Below are positions 2,286-13,404 of a stretch of 25,955 nucleotides of DNA, piece after piece. Origin of the DNA: a virus; IMG/VR virus record IMGVR_UViG_3300017710_000044, positions 1-25,955 of that record. One strand, 5' to 3'. Position numbers and translations under genes: made by a program. The notes under the pieces are model-generated. The model searched no databases. It was not told the DNA's origin and worked only from the letters and a program-made list of their open reading frames with translations. Every line of letters starts with the position of its first letter. The stretch's first letter is position 1.

Positions 2286-2587
2286 TGGAAGATTTAGTTA
2301 CTGCTGTTCAAAACTACGGGTTTCCTGTAGTAGCAATGGTAGGTCTTGGATATTTTGTTTACTTTGTTTGGACTACTATAAATGAAGAAATAGATCCCGC
2401 AATTGAAGAATTGCATATGACACTAATTAGACTCATTGATCAAGTAAGGATGCTTGACAATGATATGATACGTTTACAAGAAAAAGTAAACACGGCTCTG
2501 CATATTAGAGATAATGAAAAGAAGAATGACATACAAGTACAAAGTCATGAGACCAAAAAGGACAACAATGATGCAAAAAGGAATTAG
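2285..2587 (+). CDS. Holin-like small membrane protein B
   Basis: The product has 100 residues. The membrane segment is at about residues 12-32 (GFPVVAMVGLGYFVYFVWTTI). An acidic linker, a predicted coiled helix (LHMTLIRLIDQVRMLDNDMIRLQEKVNTALHI) and a charged Lys/Asp/Asn-rich tail follow. It is a tandem paralog of the gene before it. The ribosome site AGGAGAGACTA precedes the ATG, and the start shares a base with the upstream stop. Its 3' end overlaps the csgF start by about 20 nt in another frame. A holin or antiholin pair is one explanation, since phage holins often occur as pairs. No direct evidence of lysis function is in the sequence. Confidence 0.6.
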   Translation: MEDLVTAVQNYGFPVVAMVGLGYFVYFVWTTINEEIDPAIEELHMTLIRLIDQVRMLDNDMIRLQEKVNTALHIRDNEKKNDIQVQSHETKKDNNDAKRN

Positions 2588-3059
2588 ATTAATTTTTTCA
2601 GTAGCCTTAATTGGAGGAGCTTTATTCTTATTTGTACCTGTCGTACAAGGCGACGAAATAGTACATAAATTTAAAAATCCTTCTTTTAGTGGTATAGGTA
2701 CTGGAGCACATTACTTAACAATTGAAAATCAAGAAAACGCAAGAAAGAAACAAATCGAAGATGCTTTAGAGGCAGCTCGTAAAGCAGCGGAAAGAGAAGC
2801 TGATAATAGTACTCTTGCAAAATTTATTAGAAACCTAGAAAGCAGAATTTATTCGCAAATGGCAAAACAATTAGTAGAATCTATGTTTTCCAATGATGAA
2901 TCTGTAAGGTTTGGCTCCTTCACTCTTGAAGGTAATGTAGTTACCTATGAAGTAATTACAAATACAGACGGCAGTGAATTTATTAGAATGACTATAATCG
3001 GTACAGACGGTACGGAAACAGTCATCGAGATACCAGTAGGAACTGGTACATTCGGATAA
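2568..3059 (+). CDS. csgF: CsgF-like curli assembly factor
   Basis: Starting from the ATG pair at 2568/2571, the product is about 163 residues. It has a signal peptide (QKGIRLIFSVALIGGALFLFVPVVQG, cleaved before DE). The mature N-terminus reads EIVHKFKNPSFSGIGTG, matching the CsgF signature FxFRNPxFGGNP that inserts into the CsgG barrel. A long charged helix, a LESRIYSQMAKQLVESMF helix, and VTYEVITNTDGSEFIRMTIIGTDGTETVIEIPVG follow; the last matches the CsgF C-terminal sheet. In bacteria CsgF caps the CsgG pore on the cell surface and nucleates curli fibres. The central helix is longer and richer in Ala/Arg/Glu than in E. coli CsgF. An in-frame ATG exists at 2514, but the AAGGA site before 2568 and the signal peptide favour the later start. 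Confidence 0.82.
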   Translation: MMQKGIRLIFSVALIGGALFLFVPVVQGDEIVHKFKNPSFSGIGTGAHYLTIENQENARKKQIEDALEAARKAAEREADNSTLAKFIRNLESRIYSQMAKQLVESMFSNDESVRFGSFTLEGNVVTYEVITNTDGSEFIRMTIIGTDGTETVIEIPVGTGTFG

Positions 3060-3062
3060 AGC

Positions 3063-4016
3063 ATGATACGAGTAGCATTAAGTTTACTACTAGTACTTTC
3101 AGGATGCGCTAGTATACCTCAGTGGAGCGACAACCCTCAAGACTGTAATGATGAAGCAGGAAAGTACACAGAAGGGTTCAATAGACACGCTCAGATGGGA
3201 GTGCAAAAAGCACTTGCTAGAAAGTACATCTGTATTAACGACCCCGAGGTAGTGTCTTTACCTTCTTACATTAAGCTACTAGAATTACCTCCCGCAAAGA
3301 AAATGCCAATAGTAGCAGTATATAGTTTTAATGATTTAACAGGCCAAAGAAAGAGTGTACAAAACATTGCAAGTTTTAGTACGGCGGTGACTCAGGGCGG
3401 AGTAGAGATGCTTATTGATGCCCTTAAAACAGCTGGGGGAACAAAATGGTTTAGAGTAGTTGAAAGACATGGAATTGACCATTTAGTTCGTGAAAGACAA
3501 ATAATAAGATCTGGAAGGGAAGATGCTGCTAAAGCTCTAGGAGAAACGGCACCTAAGGTTGGTCCTTTACTCTTTGCCGGAATTATTATTGAAGGTGGTA
3601 TTATTGGGTATGACACCAATATGCTAACTGGAGGAAGAGGAGCCAGAACTCTTGGAATTAGTTTCACAAAACAATATAGACAAGATCAAGTAACTGTCAG
3701 TCTTCGGGCAGTTTCTGTACTTACAGGAGAAGTCCTTTTAAATGTACAGACAAAGAAAACCATACTGTCGTATGGAGCATCAGGAGACATTTTTAGATTT
3801 ATTGAAGAAGGCACTCAACTTATAGAATATGAGGACGGTACTGGAAAAAATGAATCTGTAACTTATGCAGTACGAACAGCTATTGAAGCTGCAGTACTCG
3901 AAATGATCTACCAAGGCCACGACAGAGGCTATTGGCAGATAACGCCAGGACATAGACATCCGCATCAAGATAATGGTACGAATGAATTACATGCTCTGGA
4001 AGGGAGAGAAGAATGA
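3063..4016 (+). CDS. csgG: CsgG outer-membrane curli secretion pore
   Basis: The product has 317 residues. A lipoprotein signal has the lipobox LSGC, with Cys15 as the predicted lipidation site. After a roughly 50-residue insert with two further Cys (28 and 57), the CsgG domain runs from about residue 80 to 295. Diagnostic matches to E. coli CsgG by eye include FSTAV, GARTLGISFTKQYRQDQVTV, TGEVLLNVQTKKTILSY, DIFRFIE, the Ala-Ile-Glu of AIEAAVLEMI and DRGYW. CsgG forms a nonameric 36-strand barrel that exports unfolded curlin across the outer membrane. The loop that lines the pore constriction is altered (Tyr51 and Asn55 replaced, Phe56 kept, E. coli mature numbering). The C-terminus is His-rich (HRHPH). 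It lies directly between csgF and a curlin-repeat gene and overlaps the latter by ATGA, so one operon is clear. Confidence 0.93.
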   Translation: MIRVALSLLLVLSGCASIPQWSDNPQDCNDEAGKYTEGFNRHAQMGVQKALARKYICINDPEVVSLPSYIKLLELPPAKKMPIVAVYSFNDLTGQRKSVQNIASFSTAVTQGGVEMLIDALKTAGGTKWFRVVERHGIDHLVRERQIIRSGREDAAKALGETAPKVGPLLFAGIIIEGGIIGYDTNMLTGGRGARTLGISFTKQYRQDQVTVSLRAVSVLTGEVLLNVQTKKTILSYGASGDIFRFIEEGTQLIEYEDGTGKNESVTYAVRTAIEAAVLEMIYQGHDRGYWQITPGHRHPHQDNGTNELHALEGREE

Positions 4017-4747
4017 GAATACTACTTTTAGGCCTAAGTTTATTTTTTAGTTCTTTAGCATTAGCACAGGCAACAGATGACAACGAAATCTGGATCGATC
4101 AAACAGGTGATACTCTTACTTTGTACATTGACCAAATAGGTTTCGGTAACAAGATAGGACTCGATGATTTTTCAGGTTCAGCAGATTACATGGACATTAC
4201 TGGTGCTTCACTTACTTTTGATTTAGACTTTGCAGGTAACCAAAATTTACTTTTTGGTGCTTTAGTTGCAGACTCCTCGAGTTATACTATTAACTTTATA
4301 GGAGACTCGAACGAACTAGATTGGAGCATTGGCTCTACTGGTTCAGGAGACACGTCTAATTACAATATAGCGGTGACAGGCGATTCTAATACTTGGGATA
4401 TTGACCAAGGATCAGTAGCCAGTGCAGAAAGACTAGACATGGACCTTACCTTAATAGGAAATAGCAATATTTTTGACCTTGACTTTGAAGCAGACGACGC
4501 TACATGGAACTTCGATATAACTGGAGATTCCAACAATGTTAATACTTTACAAAAAGATGGTGCAGATGCGAAAATTGATTTCGTATTAGTTGGAGACAGC
4601 GCAGACATTGATATAAATCAAATATCTGGTACTTGTGCCGCTTCAGGCGGAGGGTGTGCTACACCATCAGGCATCATAGAAATGGAAGTGACAAGCGACA
4701 ATGCAACTATTCAGATCAATCAAAAAGACGCAGCTAACGATTCTTAG
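4013..4747 (+). CDS. Curlin-repeat fibre subunit candidate 1
   Basis: The product has 244 residues, with a signal peptide ending SSLALAQA before TDDNE. The rest is about eight repeats of 21-25 residues. Each has alternating hydrophobic positions, a G-D/N-S-N turn, and a second strand often ending in Gln, for example IAVTGDSNTWDIDQ, LTLIGNSNIFDLDF and FVLVGDSADIDINQ. This is the strand-turn-strand logic of CsgA/CsgB curlin repeats, which stack into a beta-solenoid amyloid. It is much richer in Asp than E. coli CsgA. A Cys pair separated by six residues (CAASGGGC) lies before the last repeat. It has a strong ribosome site (GGAAGGGAGAGAAG). Placement directly after CsgG supports it as an export substrate. 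Whether it is the main subunit or a nucleator cannot be told. Confidence 0.82.
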   Translation: MRILLLGLSLFFSSLALAQATDDNEIWIDQTGDTLTLYIDQIGFGNKIGLDDFSGSADYMDITGASLTFDLDFAGNQNLLFGALVADSSSYTINFIGDSNELDWSIGSTGSGDTSNYNIAVTGDSNTWDIDQGSVASAERLDMDLTLIGNSNIFDLDFEADDATWNFDITGDSNNVNTLQKDGADAKIDFVLVGDSADIDINQISGTCAASGGGCATPSGIIEMEVTSDNATIQINQKDAANDS

Positions 4748-5840
4748 TTTACTGGTTATCAGTGGAGTCTCACATGCAGACTCCATTGGTGACATAGTAG
4801 AAAGTACGGGGCTCTCATCTTTAACGCGACAAACAGGAGAAGAGTTTGTAGTATCTTCCACACTGGTTCCCTCTATAGAAATAATGGATAGAGCAGAAAC
4901 AAAGAATGGAAGAATGTTAATAGAATTTTTAGATAAATCAGAATTAGCACTAACAGAACACACAAGGGTAATTATAGACGAAGTTATATATGACCCTAAT
5001 CCAGACAAGTCCAAAATGGTAATGAAATTTGCTTTTGGCACTGCAAGATTTGCAAGTGGGGTAACAGGTCAAGTTAATAAGAATAATATTGACATACAAA
5101 CACCAACAGCACAGATTGCAATTCGTGGTACTGATTTCACTACTACGATAGATGAACTAGGCAGAAGCTTAGTTATATTGCTTCCTGATGAGTATGGAGA
5201 CCCATCAGGATCAATAATAGTAAGTAATCAAGCAGGAGAAGTCACATTAGATCAAGCATACGCAGCGACTATGGTATCCTCTCTTGATAGTACACCTACA
5301 CAAGCCGTTACACTAAACAATGTTACACCAGGAATTATTGATAATATGTTTATTGTAAATCCTCCTAAAGAAATAAGAGAGACAGTAGAAGAAAGTGTAC
5401 AAAACAACGAAGACTCAGGACTATTAGATATAGACTACTTAGAGTTTAATGAATTAGAACAAGACGCTCTAAAGAATACAGAAGTTGATTTAGAGTTTTC
5501 AGAGTTAGATATAGACTTTCTAGATGTAGACTTTTTAAGAGACTTACTAGATGTCATAGAAGAATTAGATAGAACAACAATAAAGCTAGCAGATAGACAA
5601 GCAAACGCTAGTAGCGACTTCACTTTACGTGGAGCAACAATAGGCAAGAACTCAGACAGCCAATATAATATATTTGTAGAAGATGATGGCGTAGTATTTT
5701 ATAGAGATGTACAAGGCATAATTCGTTTAAAAGTACAAATAGGCAGCAGTGTTAAGCTAGAGACAAGAGTAGAAGGGTACGAAGGACTCATTGATCTAGA
5801 TGGAGGAGAAGACTCATTAATAGTTATTTCTCAAGATTAA
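4701..5840 (+). CDS. FecR-domain periplasmic protein
   Basis: The product has 379 residues. The signal peptide (RSIKKTQLTILSLLVISGVSHA, cleaved before DS) supports the ATG at 4701, although that start lies 47 nt inside the curlin gene in another frame. GGAAG precedes it. Residues about 60-150 form the FecR fold, with GRMLIEFLDKSELALTEHTRVIIDE, MKFAFGTARFASG and TPTAQIAIRGTDFTT, the last a hallmark of the family. An acidic region (about 225-290, with LDIDYLEF, LDIDFLDVDFLRD) and a C-terminal beta-rich segment follow. FecR domains act in periplasmic signalling or bind cell-surface polymers. They are often encoded beside CHASE2 cyclases and CsgG- or OmpA-type genes in bacteria. Here it may link the secretion module to the cyclase downstream. 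Confidence 0.85.
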   Translation: MQLFRSIKKTQLTILSLLVISGVSHADSIGDIVESTGLSSLTRQTGEEFVVSSTLVPSIEIMDRAETKNGRMLIEFLDKSELALTEHTRVIIDEVIYDPNPDKSKMVMKFAFGTARFASGVTGQVNKNNIDIQTPTAQIAIRGTDFTTTIDELGRSLVILLPDEYGDPSGSIIVSNQAGEVTLDQAYAATMVSSLDSTPTQAVTLNNVTPGIIDNMFIVNPPKEIRETVEESVQNNEDSGLLDIDYLEFNELEQDALKNTEVDLEFSELDIDFLDVDFLRDLLDVIEELDRTTIKLADRQANASSDFTLRGATIGKNSDSQYNIFVEDDGVVFYRDVQGIIRLKVQIGSSVKLETRVEGYEGLIDLDGGEDSLIVISQD

Positions 5841-5924
5841 GGTTTATACGTAGAAAGTATGGATTTCCTTTACAAAGATTAGGAAGAATAATAGATATTT
5901 ATATATGAAAACAGGAGTAAGTAG

Positions 5925-6074
5925 ATGTGGAGACTGTGGGCAAAAAGTTTAGGAGAAAAAAATGGAACAACTGACAGAGAGGCTGACAAAATTGCTATTA
6001 TTCGTAGTTGTATCGTGCTACTTAATGCTATTACATGCTGCGTTATTATAGCAGGCAATATACATAATTGGTAA
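5925..6074 (+). CDS. Small membrane protein, 49 aa
   Basis: An ATG at 5925 with GGAG eight bases upstream opens a 49-residue product. It starts MWRLWAKSLGEKNGTTDREAD and continues with KIAIIRSCIVLLNAITCCVIIAGNIHNW. The first half is charged with a LWAKSLGEK motif. The second half is one membrane helix with two adjacent Cys, ending in His-Asn-Trp. I recall similar tiny membrane proteins (RLWAKALGEK followed by a hydrophobic helix ending in HW) in phages of marine bacteria, but no function. The stop falls 4 nt before the next ATG. A competing frame (ATG near 5962, 29 residues) is less convincing. Confidence 0.6.
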   Translation: MWRLWAKSLGEKNGTTDREADKIAIIRSCIVLLNAITCCVIIAGNIHNW

Positions 6075-6078
6075 TAAT

Positions 6079-6297
6079 ATGAAACTAAGAGAAAAGATAA
6101 ATAATAGAATAGATCAAATAGAAATGCTTATGTATGAAAACTACCATTTAAAGAACCCAAATGAAGTGTATAATCAAACACTACAAGTTACTAAGTTTTG
6201 GTCAGTTCTTTCAGAAGAAGACAGAGACTTTCTTCAAGCAGCACAGTCTTCTATTGAAGAAGGATGGAGATGGGAAAAAGATGATAGAGGTAACTAA
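6079..6297 (+). CDS. Hypothetical protein, 72 aa
   Basis: Not recognised. The product is 72 residues, mostly charged and helical, with EDRDFLQAAQSSIEEGWRWEKDDRGN at the end. No signal peptide or membrane segment is present. It starts 5 nt after the small membrane protein gene and overlaps the IscA-like gene by 17 nt, so it belongs to the same operon. The ribosome site is weak. Confidence 0.55.
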   Translation: MKLREKINNRIDQIEMLMYENYHLKNPNEVYNQTLQVTKFWSVLSEEDRDFLQAAQSSIEEGWRWEKDDRGN

Positions 6298-6598
6298 TGA
6301 AGCGTATTCTAAGCTTATACAGAAGGCATTACTACAGGAGAATTTTGTTTTTAGACTTGGTATTACTGGGGGCGGCTGCGGTGGTATGGAGTACATTTTT
6401 GCTTATAATGATAAGAGTTTTCCAAGCGATACTGTGATAGATTGGGGCGAAATAAGATTCCGTATCGATCATAATTCAGTTTCCTACTTGAAAGGCTTTA
6501 CACTAGATTACAAAGTGGAAGGATTAAATGAATCCTTCGTATTTATTAACCCAAATGAAACTTATCGCTGTGGATGCGGTGAAAGCGTGGTATTTTAA
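6281..6598 (+). CDS. A-type iron-sulfur carrier (IscA/ErpA/HesB family)
   Basis: From the ATG at 6281 the product is 105 residues, close to bacterial IscA (107). It has the three conserved cysteines of the family: Cys33 in ITGGGCGGMEY and Cys97/Cys99 in YRCGCGESV. The N-terminus (MIEVTNEAYSKLIQKAL) matches the usual helix. A-type carriers accept and hand over Fe-S clusters to apoproteins. A longer in-frame reading from 6161 exists, but its extra 40 residues overlap the previous gene and lack family similarity; GGAGATGGG precedes 6281. In a phage it may maintain an Fe-S enzyme during infection or help supply Fe-S clusters to a phage protein. It sits within the cargo block, without obvious Fe-S partners in the window. 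Confidence 0.85.
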   Translation: MIEVTNEAYSKLIQKALLQENFVFRLGITGGGCGGMEYIFAYNDKSFPSDTVIDWGEIRFRIDHNSVSYLKGFTLDYKVEGLNESFVFINPNETYRCGCGESVVF

Positions 6599-6783
6599 TG
6601 GAAAATTATTATTTTAAAGACGAACTACTAAGAGTGGTAAATTTATCTCCACCTAAGTTAGATATAAACAAATTGGAAGAAGTACACCCAATGAAACAAA
6701 TAGTCTGGGCAGCAATCATACAGGTTGCAGTTTTCGGTTTTATGTTGTTATCATTTTGGGGAATTAACGGAGTAGTACAATGA
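6598..6783 (+). CDS. Small single-span membrane protein, 61 aa
   Basis: The product has 61 residues. A polar N-terminal half (MENYYFKDELLRVVNLSPPKLDINKLEEVH) is followed by one membrane helix at about residues 33-57 (KQIVWAAIIQVAVFGFMLLSFWGI). It starts on the last base of the IscA-like stop (TAATG) and overlaps the next gene by ATGA, so translation is probably coupled across the three. An internal Met at residue 32 could give a version that is almost only the helix. Function unknown; the holin-like size is noted but not sufficient for a call. Confidence 0.6.
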   Translation: MENYYFKDELLRVVNLSPPKLDINKLEEVHPMKQIVWAAIIQVAVFGFMLLSFWGINGVVQ

Positions 6784-7676
6784 CAAAGCAATGGCACGGA
6801 GGAAAAGGCAGTGTGCAAAGACCTACAAACAAAGATAAGTACAATGATAACTATGATAGAATTTTTAACAAATCTAAAGAAGATAAAATAGAAAAAGCTA
6901 TGGAAGAAGTAAATAAAAAATATCCTGAAACTCTTAAAAGTTTAGGAGAGATAACTGCGCTTGGAACGGTATTCTTTTTATCTATTTTTGCACTAAGTCC
7001 TTCTACTCAAGCAGATGATAACTTAATTCATATTGAGCAGTCAGGAAATAACTTTCAATTAGGGGTTGACCAAGTAGGGTATAATAACACCATTGATATG
7101 TTAGACTCTCAGTCTTATATTACAGCAGGTAGTCTAGATATGTACTTGGTTCAAGTTAACACTACTTCTGGAGCACTTCCTAATTCAATTATATTTGATG
7201 AAGTAAGTGGCACAGGTAATCAAATGAAACTTGCCCAAGGTGCTGCATGGACTACACTTGATTCAGACACTGATTTAACTTGGTGGGTAGATAACTACGA
7301 GAGTGGAGGCCACGATATAGGAATTACTATGTATGGCGACTATAATGAACTAGCGGTTCAACAAACAAATCAAACAGGTGCATCAGATGGTCATACTTTT
7401 GATCTACATTTAGCAGGCGATAATAATAAAACTCAGATAAAACAACAAAGTAATGGAGCAAAGACTATAGACCTTACAATTTACAATGACTATAATGATG
7501 TATTTATCAGACAAAAAGGTGTTTGGGCAGCTCACACGGCAACTATAACACTTGATGGTACTAATCCAACAGATTTAACTTTAAAACAATTTGGAGATAC
7601 AACTCAAACGTACAGTCTAGCACAAAACTGCTATACTACAGGAGGTTGCACGGTAAGTGTGACTCAAGGACAATAA
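6780..7676 (+). CDS. Curlin-repeat fibre subunit candidate 2, with N-terminal phage domain
   Basis: The product has 298 residues. Residues 1-30 (QWHGGKGSVQRPTNKDKYNDNYDRIF) resemble a small conserved protein I associate with marine phages, here fused to a secreted protein. A charged linker leads to a hydrophobic signal-like segment at about 56-75 (LGTVFFLSIFALSPSTQA), then ADDN. The rest is curlin-like repeats, for example IHIEQSGNNFQLGVDQVGYNN, FDLHLAGDNNKTQIKQQ and IDLTIYNDYNDVFIRQK. The block after the cleavage site matches the first curlin gene (DDN-I-I-Q-G, then DQ-G and N-I), and both have a Cys pair near the C-terminus (CYTTGGC here). Repeats are less regular and richer in Asn/Gln/Thr. 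It may be the second subunit, analogous to CsgB beside CsgA. The ribosome site GGAG lies 7 nt before the ATG. Confidence 0.75.
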   Translation: MTKQWHGGKGSVQRPTNKDKYNDNYDRIFNKSKEDKIEKAMEEVNKKYPETLKSLGEITALGTVFFLSIFALSPSTQADDNLIHIEQSGNNFQLGVDQVGYNNTIDMLDSQSYITAGSLDMYLVQVNTTSGALPNSIIFDEVSGTGNQMKLAQGAAWTTLDSDTDLTWWVDNYESGGHDIGITMYGDYNELAVQQTNQTGASDGHTFDLHLAGDNNKTQIKQQSNGAKTIDLTIYNDYNDVFIRQKGVWAAHTATITLDGTNPTDLTLKQFGDTTQTYSLAQNCYTTGGCTVSVTQGQ

Positions 7677-7677
7677 T

Positions 7678-7968
7678 ATGCCTAAGAAAAGAGACCCAAG
7701 ACTAAAAAGAGCAGGAGTACGAGGATTTAACAAACCAAAGAGAACTCCAGGACATAGAACAAAATCACACATAGTTGTTGCCAAAGTAGGTGGTAGAATC
7801 AAAACAATACGTTTTGGCCAGCAGGGAGCTAAGACGGCAGGGAAGCCCAAGGCCGGTGAGTCTGCTCGTATGAAGAAAAAAAGAGCTTCCTTCAAAGCAA
7901 GACACCGCAGGAATATAGCAAAGGGTAAGATGTCCGCAGCTTACTGGGCAAATAAAGTAAAGTGGTAA
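7678..7968 (+). CDS. Basic conserved phage protein, 96 aa
   Basis: The product has 96 residues, strongly basic. It carries PRLKRAGVRGFNKPKRTPGHRTKSHIVVAKV, IKTIRFGQQGAKTAG and a C-terminus ASFKARHRRNIAKGKMSAAYWANKVKW. I recognise this as a family common in marine phages, without known function. The charge and the RH-N-KGKMSAAYWANKVKW ending suggest nucleic-acid binding or a virion-packaged protein. AGGA precedes the start. Its stop overlaps the GTG start of the cyclase by 7 nt, coupling the two. Confidence 0.75.
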   Translation: MPKKRDPRLKRAGVRGFNKPKRTPGHRTKSHIVVAKVGGRIKTIRFGQQGAKTAGKPKAGESARMKKKRASFKARHRRNIAKGKMSAAYWANKVKW

Positions 7969-9746
7969 AAAAGCTTATTGCTTTTACTTTGGTACTGGGA
8001 TTCTTTATATGGAATCCCTATCCTTTAAAAATACTAGAACTTCAATCATTCGATTGGCTTATGAAAACACAGCCTGAAGTTCAAAATCAAAACATAGTAC
8101 TCGTCGATATTGATGAAGAAATCGTCGAGGCATACGGAGGTTATCCACTTCCTAGAACACTTTTTGCAGCCATGATAGAGAGAACTTCCGGGGTACCGGG
8201 GTTCACAATACTCATGCCTGATCCAGACTTGCGAGACAAAGCAAACGATATAGTATTATCTAATGCTCTCAGTGCAAGACCAACAGTGTTAGCTTTTGCA
8301 GCTTCAACACAAGCAACTGAGTTAGGGCCTCATGTAGGCACTGCTCAAATAGGAGGTGATCCAACAAAATGGACGATAAATTATCAGGGAATCCTGAGGC
8401 AGACTACGATATTGTCTCACGCCGCAGAGGGCAAAGGTATCGTAAGCTCAAGGAGCGAGCTAGACGGCGTCGTAAGGCGAATTCCTCTAGTCGTAAGTAG
8501 TAATAACGAAGTATACCCAAGTTTTGCACTAGAAATGTTAAGACTTGGCACAGGAGATATTAGTTACCAGATAAGAACAGGAGAGTACGGGGTTGAGTGG
8601 GTCAGAGTACCTGCGTATAATAAAATGAATACTGATGCAAATGGAAGTATATGGTTAAACACCAATGTAAAGTTCCACAGGCAAACAGCTTCAGAGTTTA
8701 TGAGCAATCCTATGCAAGCACCGTTTGTTATTTTTGGAGTTACTGCAGAGGGAGTGGTTAATCCAGTTCCTACGGCTTCAGGGGCTAAATATCCACATGA
8801 ACTTCAAGCAAATATACTACATAACTTAATTGAAGGAAAAGCACCTTCAGTTCCAAATTGGAGTGCAGGAGTAGAGCTAGGAGCTGCAGTTCTAGCTTTG
8901 CTTCTCCTCCTTCTTACTGTAAGTAGAGTCTATTTAAGCCTACCCACTTTACTACTAGTTATTGGAGGTTCTTTATATGGAGCCTGGTATGCCTTCCAGT
9001 CTTCCTATCTATTTGACGTTTCTGGAATCATAATCATCTCGGTTTTGTTTTGGAGTATCGAAAGTTTCAGGAATTTTATAAAGACCTATTTCGAGAAAAT
9101 GGAAATTAAACGACAATTCGGGACATACGTAAGTCCTGCCTTAGTAAAAAAATTACAAAAAGACCCAACACTACTGAGATTGGGTGGGTCTACAAAACGT
9201 ATGACTTTTCTTTTTTCTGACATTCGAGGATTCACACCAATTTCAGAAAAATATCAATCAGACCCTCAAGGACTAACTAAACTTATAAACAGATTTCTTA
9301 ACAATCAAACAGAAATCATATTAAAACATGGCGGAACAATAGATAAATACATGGGCGATTGTATCATGGCATTTTGGGGTGCACCACTCGATGACGAAGA
9401 TCAAGTTGAAAACGCTACAAAAGCTGTACTTGAAATGAGAATAGCACTTGGAGAATTAAATGAAAAACTTGAGGAAGAGGGACTGGATCAAATCAATACA
9501 GGAGCAGGAATTAACACAGGTTTATGCGTCGTGGGGAACTTTGGGTCATCGACTCGTTTTGACTATTCTGTGCTTGGCGATAGCGTTAATCTGGCTGCAC
9601 GGTTAGAATCCAGCTGTAAAACTTATAATACTGATTTAATTATATCAGAACACAGTCTACTAGATACTTATGAATATGAGTTTTTAGACGAAGTAACGGT
9701 TAAAGGCAAATCCGAACCCGTAAAAATATACACCATACAAAAATAG
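7962..9746 (+). CDS. CHASE2-domain membrane adenylate cyclase (class III)
   Basis: The product has 594 residues, starting at GTG. There is one N-terminal membrane helix (about 4-21) and an extracytoplasmic CHASE2 sensor domain (about 25-295, with QNIVLVDIDEEIVEAYG and PLPRTLFAAMI). Three membrane helices follow (about 302-370), then a short linker and a class III cyclase domain (about 410-594). Catalytic residues are present: metal-binding Asp420 (FSDIRGF) and Asp466 (MGDCIMAF), purine-selecting Lys462 (DKYMGD), and Asn543 and Arg547 (VNLAAR). Ser536 replaces the second purine-selecting Asp, as Thr or Ser does in class IIIb enzymes. It should make cAMP from ATP in response to a periplasmic signal. 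The last cargo gene before promoter P2, it overlaps the upstream stop; no clear ribosome site. Confidence 0.93.
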   Translation: MVKKLIAFTLVLGFFIWNPYPLKILELQSFDWLMKTQPEVQNQNIVLVDIDEEIVEAYGGYPLPRTLFAAMIERTSGVPGFTILMPDPDLRDKANDIVLSNALSARPTVLAFAASTQATELGPHVGTAQIGGDPTKWTINYQGILRQTTILSHAAEGKGIVSSRSELDGVVRRIPLVVSSNNEVYPSFALEMLRLGTGDISYQIRTGEYGVEWVRVPAYNKMNTDANGSIWLNTNVKFHRQTASEFMSNPMQAPFVIFGVTAEGVVNPVPTASGAKYPHELQANILHNLIEGKAPSVPNWSAGVELGAAVLALLLLLLTVSRVYLSLPTLLLVIGGSLYGAWYAFQSSYLFDVSGIIIISVLFWSIESFRNFIKTYFEKMEIKRQFGTYVSPALVKKLQKDPTLLRLGGSTKRMTFLFSDIRGFTPISEKYQSDPQGLTKLINRFLNNQTEIILKHGGTIDKYMGDCIMAFWGAPLDDEDQVENATKAVLEMRIALGELNEKLEEEGLDQINTGAGINTGLCVVGNFGSSTRFDYSVLGDSVNLAARLESSCKTYNTDLIISEHSLLDTYEYEFLDEVTVKGKSEPVKIYTIQK

Positions 9747-10662: not shown

Positions 10663-10845
10663 GTGGCAAGACGGAGAAAAAGTAGGACTACTCGTAAAAA
10701 GAGAAATGTGCCTACTAATTCAAAATTGTACGCAACAGTGAAAGCCGCTACTAAAAGAAAGTTCGCAGTGTATCCTAGTGCTTATGCAAACGCATGGCTA
10801 GTACGGGAGTACAAAAAGCGAGGTGGGAGATATAGACGTGCCTAG
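10663..10845 (+). CDS. Basic protein with PSAYAN...GGRY motif, 60 aa
   Basis: Starting at GTG 10663, the product is 60 residues: ARRRKSRTTRKKRN, then KFAVYPSAYANAWLVREYKKRGGRYRR. The motif of Pro-Ser-Ala-Tyr-Ala and a final Gly-Gly-x-Tyr is one I recall from small viral proteins in which it is followed by a W-F-x-E-K-W-V-D segment. That second segment is encoded by the next, overlapping gene. Function unknown. It begins 1 nt after the previous stop; GTG starts are used repeatedly in this run. Confidence 0.6.
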   Translation: MARRRKSRTTRKKRNVPTNSKLYATVKAATKRKFAVYPSAYANAWLVREYKKRGGRYRRA

Positions 10846-11146
10846 AGTAACAAGAGCTAAAAGAAGTAATGGTGGATTAACCAAATGGTTCAGTGAGAAA
10901 TGGGTAGACATATCTAGACCTAAAAAAGGTGGCGGGTATAAAACTTGTGGCAGAAAGAAAGCAAAGAAGGGCAGCAAAGGATATCCTAAATGTGTCCCAG
11001 CTTCAAAAGCTGCACGTATGACAAAAGCACAGAAAAGATCAGCTATTCGCAGAAAGCGAGCAGTTAAACAAGGGGTAGGTGGAAAGCCTACTATGGTAAG
11101 AACAATCGCAAAGAGAAAGCGAAAAACAACTAGAAGGAAGAGATAA
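10838..11146 (+). CDS. Basic protein with WFSEKWVDI motif, 102 aa
   Basis: The GTG at 10838, preceded by GGTGGGAG, is preferred over an in-frame GTG at 10823. The product is 102 residues: GGLTKWFSEKWVDISRPKKGGGYKTCGRKKAKKGSKGYPKCVPASKAARMTKAQKRSAIRRKR and a Lys/Arg-rich tail. The order W-F-x-E-K-W-V-D, then C-G-R, then Y-P-K-C, occurs in a family of small viral proteins of unknown function. Two Cys (in TCGRK and PKCVP) could pair or bind metal. It overlaps the preceding gene by 8 nt in the +1 frame. Confidence 0.65.
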   Translation: MPRVTRAKRSNGGLTKWFSEKWVDISRPKKGGGYKTCGRKKAKKGSKGYPKCVPASKAARMTKAQKRSAIRRKRAVKQGVGGKPTMVRTIAKRKRKTTRRKR

Positions 11147-11522: not shown

Positions 11523-11768
11523 ATGGCACGAACAGGATCATTTTTAACCGGGCCTACTGGTGTACACTCTACACAAAAGACCCGTAAACACAGACTCAAA
11601 AGAGGAGTCACAAGAGATATGAATGCAGCAGCAGGAACTTCAGTTAATACTAAAAGAGCCGGCAGCATGGAAGCATTCAGATACGCGGCAGCACCAAAAT
11701 CTATAGGCCCGAGGTTCGGTAAAACGAAGTCACCCAAGAGAGCTACATTTCCGCGTAGAAGAAGGTAA
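11523..11768 (+). CDS. Basic protein, 81 aa
   Basis: The product has 81 residues, rich in Arg, Lys, Thr and Ala, ending KSPKRATFPRRRR. AGGAGAG precedes the ATG. No domain recognised. The middle, DMNAAAGTSVNTKRAGSMEAFRYAAAPKSIGPRFGKTK, is low in charge, with both ends basic, as in nucleic-acid-associated or virion-internal proteins. Confidence 0.55.
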   Translation: MARTGSFLTGPTGVHSTQKTRKHRLKRGVTRDMNAAAGTSVNTKRAGSMEAFRYAAAPKSIGPRFGKTKSPKRATFPRRRR

Positions 11769-11866: not shown

Positions 11867-12103
11867 ATGGCATTACCACAAATAGATCTAAAGCAAGTAT
11901 GGCTAGACGAAGCTTATATGGCTAGTAACTCAGTAATTGATACACTTCAAGAGAAAGAGGAAGCTGGCAGAATGATTACTAAAAGTGACGCACAGTTTGC
12001 AAAGATTTGTGGGGCATATTTGTACATTTATAAACTAGCCAAAGAGAGTAAATTACTCGAACCAGACGACTTAGAAAACATTTTAACTGAGACAATTCAT
12101 TGA
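11867..12103 (+). CDS. Hypothetical protein upstream of large terminase, 78 aa
   Basis: The product has 78 residues and is helical: LKQVWLDEAYMASNSVIDTLQEKEEAGRMITKSDAQFAKICGAYLYIYKLAKESKLLEPDDLENILTETIH. It has a good ribosome site (AGGAAAATAA), and its stop overlaps the TTG start of the terminase (TTGA). Position and helical character would also fit a terminase accessory or an alternative small subunit, though no DNA-binding motif is seen. It is a rival candidate for that role to the gene at 905. Confidence 0.6.
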   Translation: MALPQIDLKQVWLDEAYMASNSVIDTLQEKEEAGRMITKSDAQFAKICGAYLYIYKLAKESKLLEPDDLENILTETIH

Positions 12104-13404
12104 GTATAGAAATTTCCAGAGCTGATGTAGAATCAGAATATTTGATGGAGTTTGACCCTAATAGTAGGTTTATTAAACTTCCTATAGAAGGGTACATGGA
12201 ACTATTAGGCATAGAACCTAATACGAGCCAACGAGCTATCATCAATGCAATCAACAATCCAAAGTATAGATTTGTAACTGCCGCAGTTTCTCGTAGACAG
12301 GGCAAAACTTACATCTCTAATATTATTGGACAACTAACATGTTTAGTACCTAATTCGCATGTACTGCTAATGTCTCCTAATTATTCTTTATCTCAAATTT
12401 CATTTGATTTACAGAGAGGTCTGATAAAGCATTTTGATTTAGAGGTAATAAGAGACAATGCAAAAGATAAAGTTATTGAGCTATCAAATAATAGCACTAT
12501 TCGTATGGGTTCTATCAACCAAGTTGACTCAGTGGTTGGTAGATCGTACGATCTTATCATATTCGACGAGGCGGCACTCACCGATGGCAGAGATGCTTTC
12601 AACGTCGCACTACGACCTACACTAGATAAAGACAACTCCAAAGCAATATTTATTTCTACTCCAAGGGGTAGGAATAATTACTTTGCAGAGTTTTATTATA
12701 GAGGCTATAATAATGAGTTTCCAGAATGGTGTGCTATTAAAGCAACCTATCACGAGAATCCTCGTGTTTCCGAAGACGACATCAAAGAAGCAAAAAAGAC
12801 CATGTCCGAAGCAGAGTTTTCGCAAGAGTACATGGCAGACTTCAATGTGTATGAAGGACAAATTTGGTCATTCAACTATGAAAAGTGCACTATGGCATTA
12901 GACCAGTTCGACACATCTAGAATGGATGTATTTGCAGGTCTTGACGTAGGCTATAAAGATCCAACAGCTTTCTGTGTAATTGCATATGATTGGGATGAAC
13001 AAAAGTATTATGTTTTAGACGAATACTTAGACGCAGAAAGAACAACTGAACAACACGCTGTGCAAATACGAAAGTTAGTAGACAAATGGGATATCGATTA
13101 TATTTATATTGATTCCGCTGCTCAACAAACAAGATATGACTTTGCTCAAAATTATGATATAACTACTATAAACGCTAAGAAGTCTGTATTAGATGGAATT
13201 GGTCATGTAGCAGGGATAGTAGATAATGACACTTTACTTGTAGATCAAAAATGTCAACAGGTAATCTCAGCGTTAGACCAATATCAATGGGACTCAAATC
13301 CTAATTTAATGAAAGAAAGACCTAAACATGATGGAGCGTCGCATATGGCCGATGCGATAAGATATGCACTATATACATTTGAAACCACAGCCACCTCATT
13401 TTAA
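12100..13404 (+). CDS. terL: Terminase large subunit (packaging ATPase/nuclease)
   Basis: The product has 434 residues from a TTG start coupled to the upstream stop. The N-terminal ATPase has Walker A SRRQGKT (64-70), Walker B LIIFDEAA (about 152-159) and the coupling motif ISTPRG (about 185-190). The C-terminal nuclease has an RNase H-like fold with Asp282 in GLDVGYKDPTA, Asp338 in YIDSA, and the HDGASHMADAIRYAL motif near 410-424, supplying the metal ligands. The protein pumps DNA into the prohead and cuts the concatemer. It is shorter than many large subunits but all motifs are present. Weak GAGA lies before the TTG. It is the last gene before promoter P3. Confidence 0.95.
   Translation: MSIEISRADVESEYLMEFDPNSRFIKLPIEGYMELLGIEPNTSQRAIINAINNPKYRFVTAAVSRRQGKTYISNIIGQLTCLVPNSHVLLMSPNYSLSQISFDLQRGLIKHFDLEVIRDNAKDKVIELSNNSTIRMGSINQVDSVVGRSYDLIIFDEAALTDGRDAFNVALRPTLDKDNSKAIFISTPRGRNNYFAEFYYRGYNNEFPEWCAIKATYHENPRVSEDDIKEAKKTMSEAEFSQEYMADFNVYEGQIWSFNYEKCTMALDQFDTSRMDVFAGLDVGYKDPTAFCVIAYDWDEQKYYVLDEYLDAERTTEQHAVQIRKLVDKWDIDYIYIDSAAQQTRYDFAQNYDITTINAKKSVLDGIGHVAGIVDNDTLLVDQKCQQVISALDQYQWDSNPNLMKERPKHDGASHMADAIRYALYTFETTATSF

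Follow-up and report, generated by a model that had tools for sequence, protein, structure and literature searches.

A virus-borne curli module with two putative paralogous curlins, a shared first repeat and paired cysteines

A type VIII secretion system (T8SS, or curli) module has already been published for pelagiphages, and in the available portions of the reports its genes stand in the order CsgF, CsgG, a CsgA/B repeat protein, FecR, a second CsgA/B protein and an adenylate cyclase, with no CsgE recognised (PMC9599517, PMC7029224). We have analysed a module of the same type in IMG/VR virus record IMGVR_UViG_3300017710_000044, all 25,955 bases of which make up what we call the window. Here the module (ca. 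2.5-9.7 kb) has the same genes in the same order and likewise no recognised CsgE: CsgF, CsgG, a first curlin-like protein designated CurA (4013..4747, + strand, 244 aa), a FecR protein, an A-type Fe-S protein, a second curlin-like protein designated CurB (6780..7676, + strand, 298 aa) and a CHASE2 cyclase. CurA and CurB are encoded alongside CsgG and CsgF, as expected of curlin subunits, and the gene order recurs in loci retrieved via CsgG alone. What we describe is a variant of the published module, with putatively cysteine-stapled phage curlins; neither the first curlin repeat (R1) nor the cysteines are described in the portions of those papers available to us.

CsgA and CsgB of E. coli have in common with CurA and CurB the curlin repeat motif, the CsgG and CsgF partners and the presence of two subunits, but CurA and CurB lack the N22 segment before R1, have degenerate inner repeats and carry pairs of cysteines. 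To our knowledge, E. coli CsgA has no cysteine. According to the available text of PMC10192328, from which the definition of the repeat motif with its N-x5-Q spacing was taken, N22 is a degenerate segment that precedes R1 and lies outside the amyloid core, and N22-like segments are an exception among curlins. The degenerate (D) class of curlins in the same source likewise has repeats in which motif a or motif b is incomplete and the arcs are longer; unlike CurA and CurB, which have conserved cysteine pairs in the arcs, no natural pair is mentioned in that text and the disulfides were engineered (PMC10192328). Among 50,697 records of a phage collection CurA matched only four, all of them Melnitz OM43 myophages (MZ577095-MZ577098), whose curlin associated repeat protein is a distant match of 29.5% identity, and CurB had no match. 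Literature searches found no work joining curli, siphovirus, marine and CsgG and none on phage-encoded curli CsgA with cysteine, and the words cysteine, disulfide and N-terminal do not occur in the main text of PMC3521004.

We consider it likely that CurA and CurB are paralogous curlins in which R1 is an end face of a beta-solenoid and the cysteine pairs are local disulfide staples. The starting point was a reading of the sequence only, which had noticed two curlin-like proteins with a matching block at the mature N-termini. Both strings that it quoted occur in the sequence, and pairwise and profile alignments bear the match out. Aligned without gaps, TDDNEIWIDQTGDTLTLYIDQIGFGNKIGLDD and ADDNLIHIEQSGNNFQLGVDQVGYNNTIDMLD are identical at 14 of 32 residues, and this block contains the top ungapped 31-mer between the two proteins, with a BLOSUM62 score of 74, while the best pair outside it scores 44 and 500 shuffles of CurA reach a maximum of 48. 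The similarity is not restricted to the block, with whole-protein phmmer scores of 26.5 bits one way and 28.4 bits the other, E 2e-6 in a two-sequence BLASTP and E 1.7e-17 across 173 columns in a profile-profile alignment. The middles do diverge, as the sequence-only reading had it, but they are not unrelated. On these alignments CurA and CurB are homologous nearly end to end, and we take them for two paralogous curlin subunits of a virus-borne T8SS module.

Both proteins have two cysteines near the C-terminus, as had been noticed from the sequence: C189-x6-C196 in CurA (4634..4657, + strand), in the loop joining the penultimate repeat to the last, and C207-x5-C213 in CurB (7629..7649, + strand), flanking the last beta-arc and lying beyond the interval that the first reading covered. 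The idea that the pair belongs to the final repeat fails for CurA, where the loop is ahead of the last repeat. The two pairs are not aligned to one another: the profile alignment stops short of them. Homologues came from loci found through curlin peptides and from loci fetched through csgG; open reading frames (ORFs) cut by the locus end or shorter than 190 residues and exact duplicates were removed, and near-identical rows were kept. All fetched loci gave 186 CurA (125 distinct) and 135 CurB (90 distinct), of which the csgG-fetched ones gave 72 (57 distinct) and 43 (34 distinct). In the last 75 residues exactly two cysteines were found in 55 of the 57 distinct csgG-fetched CurA, with 4-11 residues between them, and in 34 of 34 distinct CurB, always as C-x5-C.

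When cysteines were counted over the whole mature chain, with both kinds of loci pooled, there were 0, 2, 4 or 6 of them and never an odd number (125/125 distinct CurA and 90/90 distinct CurB). Against this parity, the second curlin of locus L214, outside the counted sets, has five if its start, which is a guess, is right, though one probably belongs to the signal peptide. The cysteines also go together by column in alignments of rows less than 88% identical to each other. In the alignment of 64 CurB rows (A3) the paired columns are filled in the same rows (64/64, 6/6, 4/4, 3/3, 1/1), and in that of 58 CurA rows (A2) one column is occupied in 53 rows, with its partners split 31+22, besides pairs of 4/4 and 3/3. 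Partner columns have equal counts and are 3-12 columns apart, and pairs occur at six sites that are either additional to the usual ones or shifted from them. In the four CurA rows that have the 4/4 pair the usual column is without cysteine, so by the alignment the pair has moved in them. On the best CurB tree the cysteine labels need seven changes, a rough figure given the long branches, and the well-supported branches alone force fewer. No intermediate with a single cysteine was seen in the counted CurA and CurB sets. For comparison, among 104 bacterial ORFs near CsgG genes, picked by a loose motif and including some non-curlins, one had exactly two cysteines within the C-terminal 75 residues; odd numbers do occur among these ORFs.

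Even counts, pairing by column and absent single-cysteine intermediates are what local disulfides predict, and the suggestion that the pair is a stabilising disulfide gains from the even counts in 215 of 215 distinct sequences together with the paired columns; across homologues, the cysteines show the pairing expected of a disulfide-bonded protein. The alternative, in which the cysteines hold a metal or link adjacent subunits or fibres to each other instead of forming intrachain bonds, we regard as unlikely. One of the extra pairs is indeed a CxxC (A3 columns 118 and 121) and a gene for an A-type Fe-S assembly protein lies inside the module (6161-6598), but the number of residues between the cysteines varies (2 to 11), no accompanying ligand was noted, and the Fe-S gene, which in some other loci is upstream of csgF, was found in only 26 of 204 scanned sources, many of them truncated. 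Intrachain disulfides would need a host with an oxidising periplasm. DsbB is present in 8/8 genomes of the genus around one Pelagibacter-labelled assembly, and such a periplasm would therefore be available if the host is Pelagibacter-like. We rate as about as likely as not the wider proposal that viruses with this curli module have evolved a distinct class of extracellular curlin with disulfide-stapled beta-arcs, the staples having been gained and moved several times, in pairs each time, so that the fibre is locked after passing CsgG.

An origin of the pair in phages alone was considered, but two chromosomal copies of the module in Caulobacteraceae also have it, in the first curlin only. The CsgG of these copies, however, nests inside the phage clade, in a tree that left out the most divergent phage CsgG rows (no anchor motif), so transfer between phage and bacterium may have gone in either direction. 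The Caulobacteraceae metagenome-assembled contigs L211 and L212 (also L313 and L314) have the order csgF-csgG-curlin-curlin-fecR-CHASE2 cyclase, and the module is flanked by glycosyltransferase genes in one of the first two, while its neighbours in the other are genes for phosphoesterase and TetR. A fecR/cyclase match was not found in 11 other Caulobacteraceae csgG stretches, two of them cut by contig ends. FecR and the cyclase are not inside bacterial T8SS operons according to the available text of PMC9599517.

The other shared element, the N-terminal block, begins 2-3 residues past the apparent signal cleavage site in both proteins. The CurA signal peptide MRILLLGLSLFFSSLALAQA (4013..4072, + strand) was read off the sequence, the signal peptides and cleavage sites of both proteins were judged by eye, and CurA residues are numbered from the last Ala of the signal peptide (4070). 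The block reads N5-x5-Q11 and L16-x5-Q22 in CurA (4070..4168, + strand), with the following repeat from N27, and N4-x5-Q10 and then Q21 in CurB (7011..7109, + strand), with the following repeat from N26. By inspection both have the form N-x5-Q, arc, x5-Q, arc, N, which matches the ca. 22-residue curlin repeat, and the PF07012 curlin repeat match falls on the block in each protein. From the spacing, the Pfam match and the start so close to the cleavage site, the sequence identifies the block as one canonical curlin repeat, R1, and not an analogue of N22. Since its profile weakly matches ordinary, often internal, repeats in 60 bacterial curlins, the R1 of CurA looks like a generic curlin repeat.

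The proposal that the block might act in secretion or docking, in the manner of E. coli N22, is one that we do not sustain in that form. It is itself a curlin repeat, no degenerate segment of ca. 22 residues precedes R1 in the mature chains of CurA or CurB by sequence, and no counterparts of V3, Q5 and Y6, the residues by which E. coli N22 binds CsgG (PMC6957492), were found in the 2-3 residues ahead of R1. A smaller version of the idea, to which we give a low probability, is that CsgG recognises the first mature residues (DDN plus the opening of R1) as a tag for secretion, common to both proteins because they use one pore. CurA D4, N5 and E6 and CurB D3 and N4 are invariant or almost so, D4 and E6 are not core-facing, and three of the four E. 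coli CsgG pocket residues for CsgA V3 (PMC6957492) are retained (I121=I174, L172=L225, W237=W291). However, an N22-like segment is absent, the invariant N5 and Q11 are ordinary motif residues and the acidic residues past the cleavage site may have a function in Sec export only. In the alignment with E. coli the hydrophobic pocket of the CsgG crevice is mostly kept, but the residues holding CsgA Q5 are altered (T31, G32 and D238 align with K79, K80 and Q292). The first residues may have a CsgG-reading role as a lesser possibility.

Conservation was measured on the csgG-fetched sets, since the other loci had been found through curlin peptides. In the 57 distinct CurA the block is the most conserved of 195 windows of 31 residues (rank 1), with a mean information of 3.19 vs. 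2.65 for the rest, and in R1 the core-facing positions have 3.70 vs. 2.69 for the outward ones, as a folded repeat predicts; the exceptions are D4 and E6, outward in the repeat register and conserved like core residues. In the 34 distinct CurB the block has 2.72 vs. 2.52 for the rest, and the C-terminal 40 residues, with the cysteine arch, are better conserved (3.12). A block better conserved than the repeats was thus found in CurA and only in part in CurB. That the blocks resemble each other merely through the descent of CurA and CurB from one gene, with R1 under no particular constraint, is disfavoured and very improbable to us: homology over 173 columns would favour it, but the R1-R1 score is far above that of the next-best stretch and no other window of the CurA family is as well conserved from virus to virus as R1.

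The mature chains were modelled with AlphaFold2 from the CurA and CurB alignments, and both models are confident (pLDDT 85.8 and pTM 0.82 for CurA, 84.5 and 0.87 for CurB) and show strand-arc-strand repeats. C189 and C196 are in the loop between strands 179-186 and 200-208 of the CurA model, and in the CurB model C207 ends strand 199-207 and C213 is just ahead of strand 215-220. We suggest that CurA and CurB would each be exported by Sec, pass through CsgG-CsgF and adopt a flat two-stranded beta-solenoid fold once outside. R1 would have kept the canonical N-x5-Q/x5-Q form while the inner repeats drifted, and it may provide one end face of the solenoid, a likely contact for the next subunit. 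R1 and the cysteine-bearing C-terminal arch would then be the two ends that stack into a fibre, in line with the head-to-tail stacking of curlins in the available text of PMC10192328, and the conserved pairs would be local disulfides that staple the beta-arcs, with the pair close to the C-terminus as the most constant of them.

Several results weigh against this proposal of stapled curlins with R1 as an end face. Two divergent CurA (L196 and L197) have no cysteine, and the CurB block ranks just 33 of 191 windows. The Pfam curlin scores of the whole proteins, 16.6 bits for CurA and 14.5 for CurB, are below the gathering cut-off of 20.7, although another scan gave 20.6 for CurA (21.4 summing neighbouring matches) and 15.1 for CurB. 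A Foldseek search of PDB with the two models gave generic beta-helix matches only, all weaker than E 0.001, which leaves the sequence motif and the strand pattern as the basis of the fold assignment. A point in favour is that the best match of the CurA profile among PDB sequences was E. coli CsgA (8enq), weak at E 0.0073; phmmer with CurA against PDB gave nothing useful. Covariation between the R1 of CurA and of CurB across 55 viruses was weak (partial r 0.11, with 16 of 1000 permutations as high) and R1 identity was hardly higher within the same virus (0.338) than between viruses (0.329), so that a specific contact between the two R1 lacks support.

The uses that marine phages make of curli are open in the literature, where sibling capture, exclusion of other phages, uptake and lysis timing are considered. 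The available text of the methylophage paper PMC9004378, in which the subunits were not recognised, proposes a role as a pore. If disulfide-stapled curlins with R1 as an assembly face are true, these modules would be under selection for a fibre and not for the pore alone, which argues against that pore-only proposal. The paired cysteines would also give a simple handle, sensitivity to reductants, on whether infection produces fibres.

CurB has a long N-terminal part ahead of its hydrophobic segment, 77 residues before the mature chain (6780-7010) starting MTKQWHGGKGS. A comparable stretch forms a small ORF of its own in locus L153 (3554-3748). The part would appear to be a small phage protein joined to the front of the signal segment. 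The remaining module genes, all on the + strand, are CsgF (2514..3059; PF10614, E 3.2e-13), the outer-membrane secretion pore CsgG, an apparent lipoprotein (3063..4016; PF03783, E 5.3e-54, and E ca. 1e-46 to E. coli CsgG structures), the FecR-domain protein (4701..5840; PF04773) and the CHASE2-adenylate/guanylate cyclase (7962..9746; PF05226, PF00211). At 1989-2587, where the available text of PMC9599517 puts a histidine kinase, there are two tandem small proteins of one unknown family (phrog_18771), neither with a Pfam match. Several small proteins of strongly basic character and unassigned role are encoded at 7678-7968, 10663-11146 and 11523-11768. The pelagiphages of PMC9599517 and PMC7029224 are, in the portions available, podoviruses and myoviruses, whereas the large terminase subunit (TerL) of the window (12100-13404) is nearest to T5-like phages (48.8%). 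The same TerL type, at 76-89% identity, is carried by 3 of 34 module-bearing records tested, and this suggests a third phage lineage for the module, beyond podo- and myoviruses.

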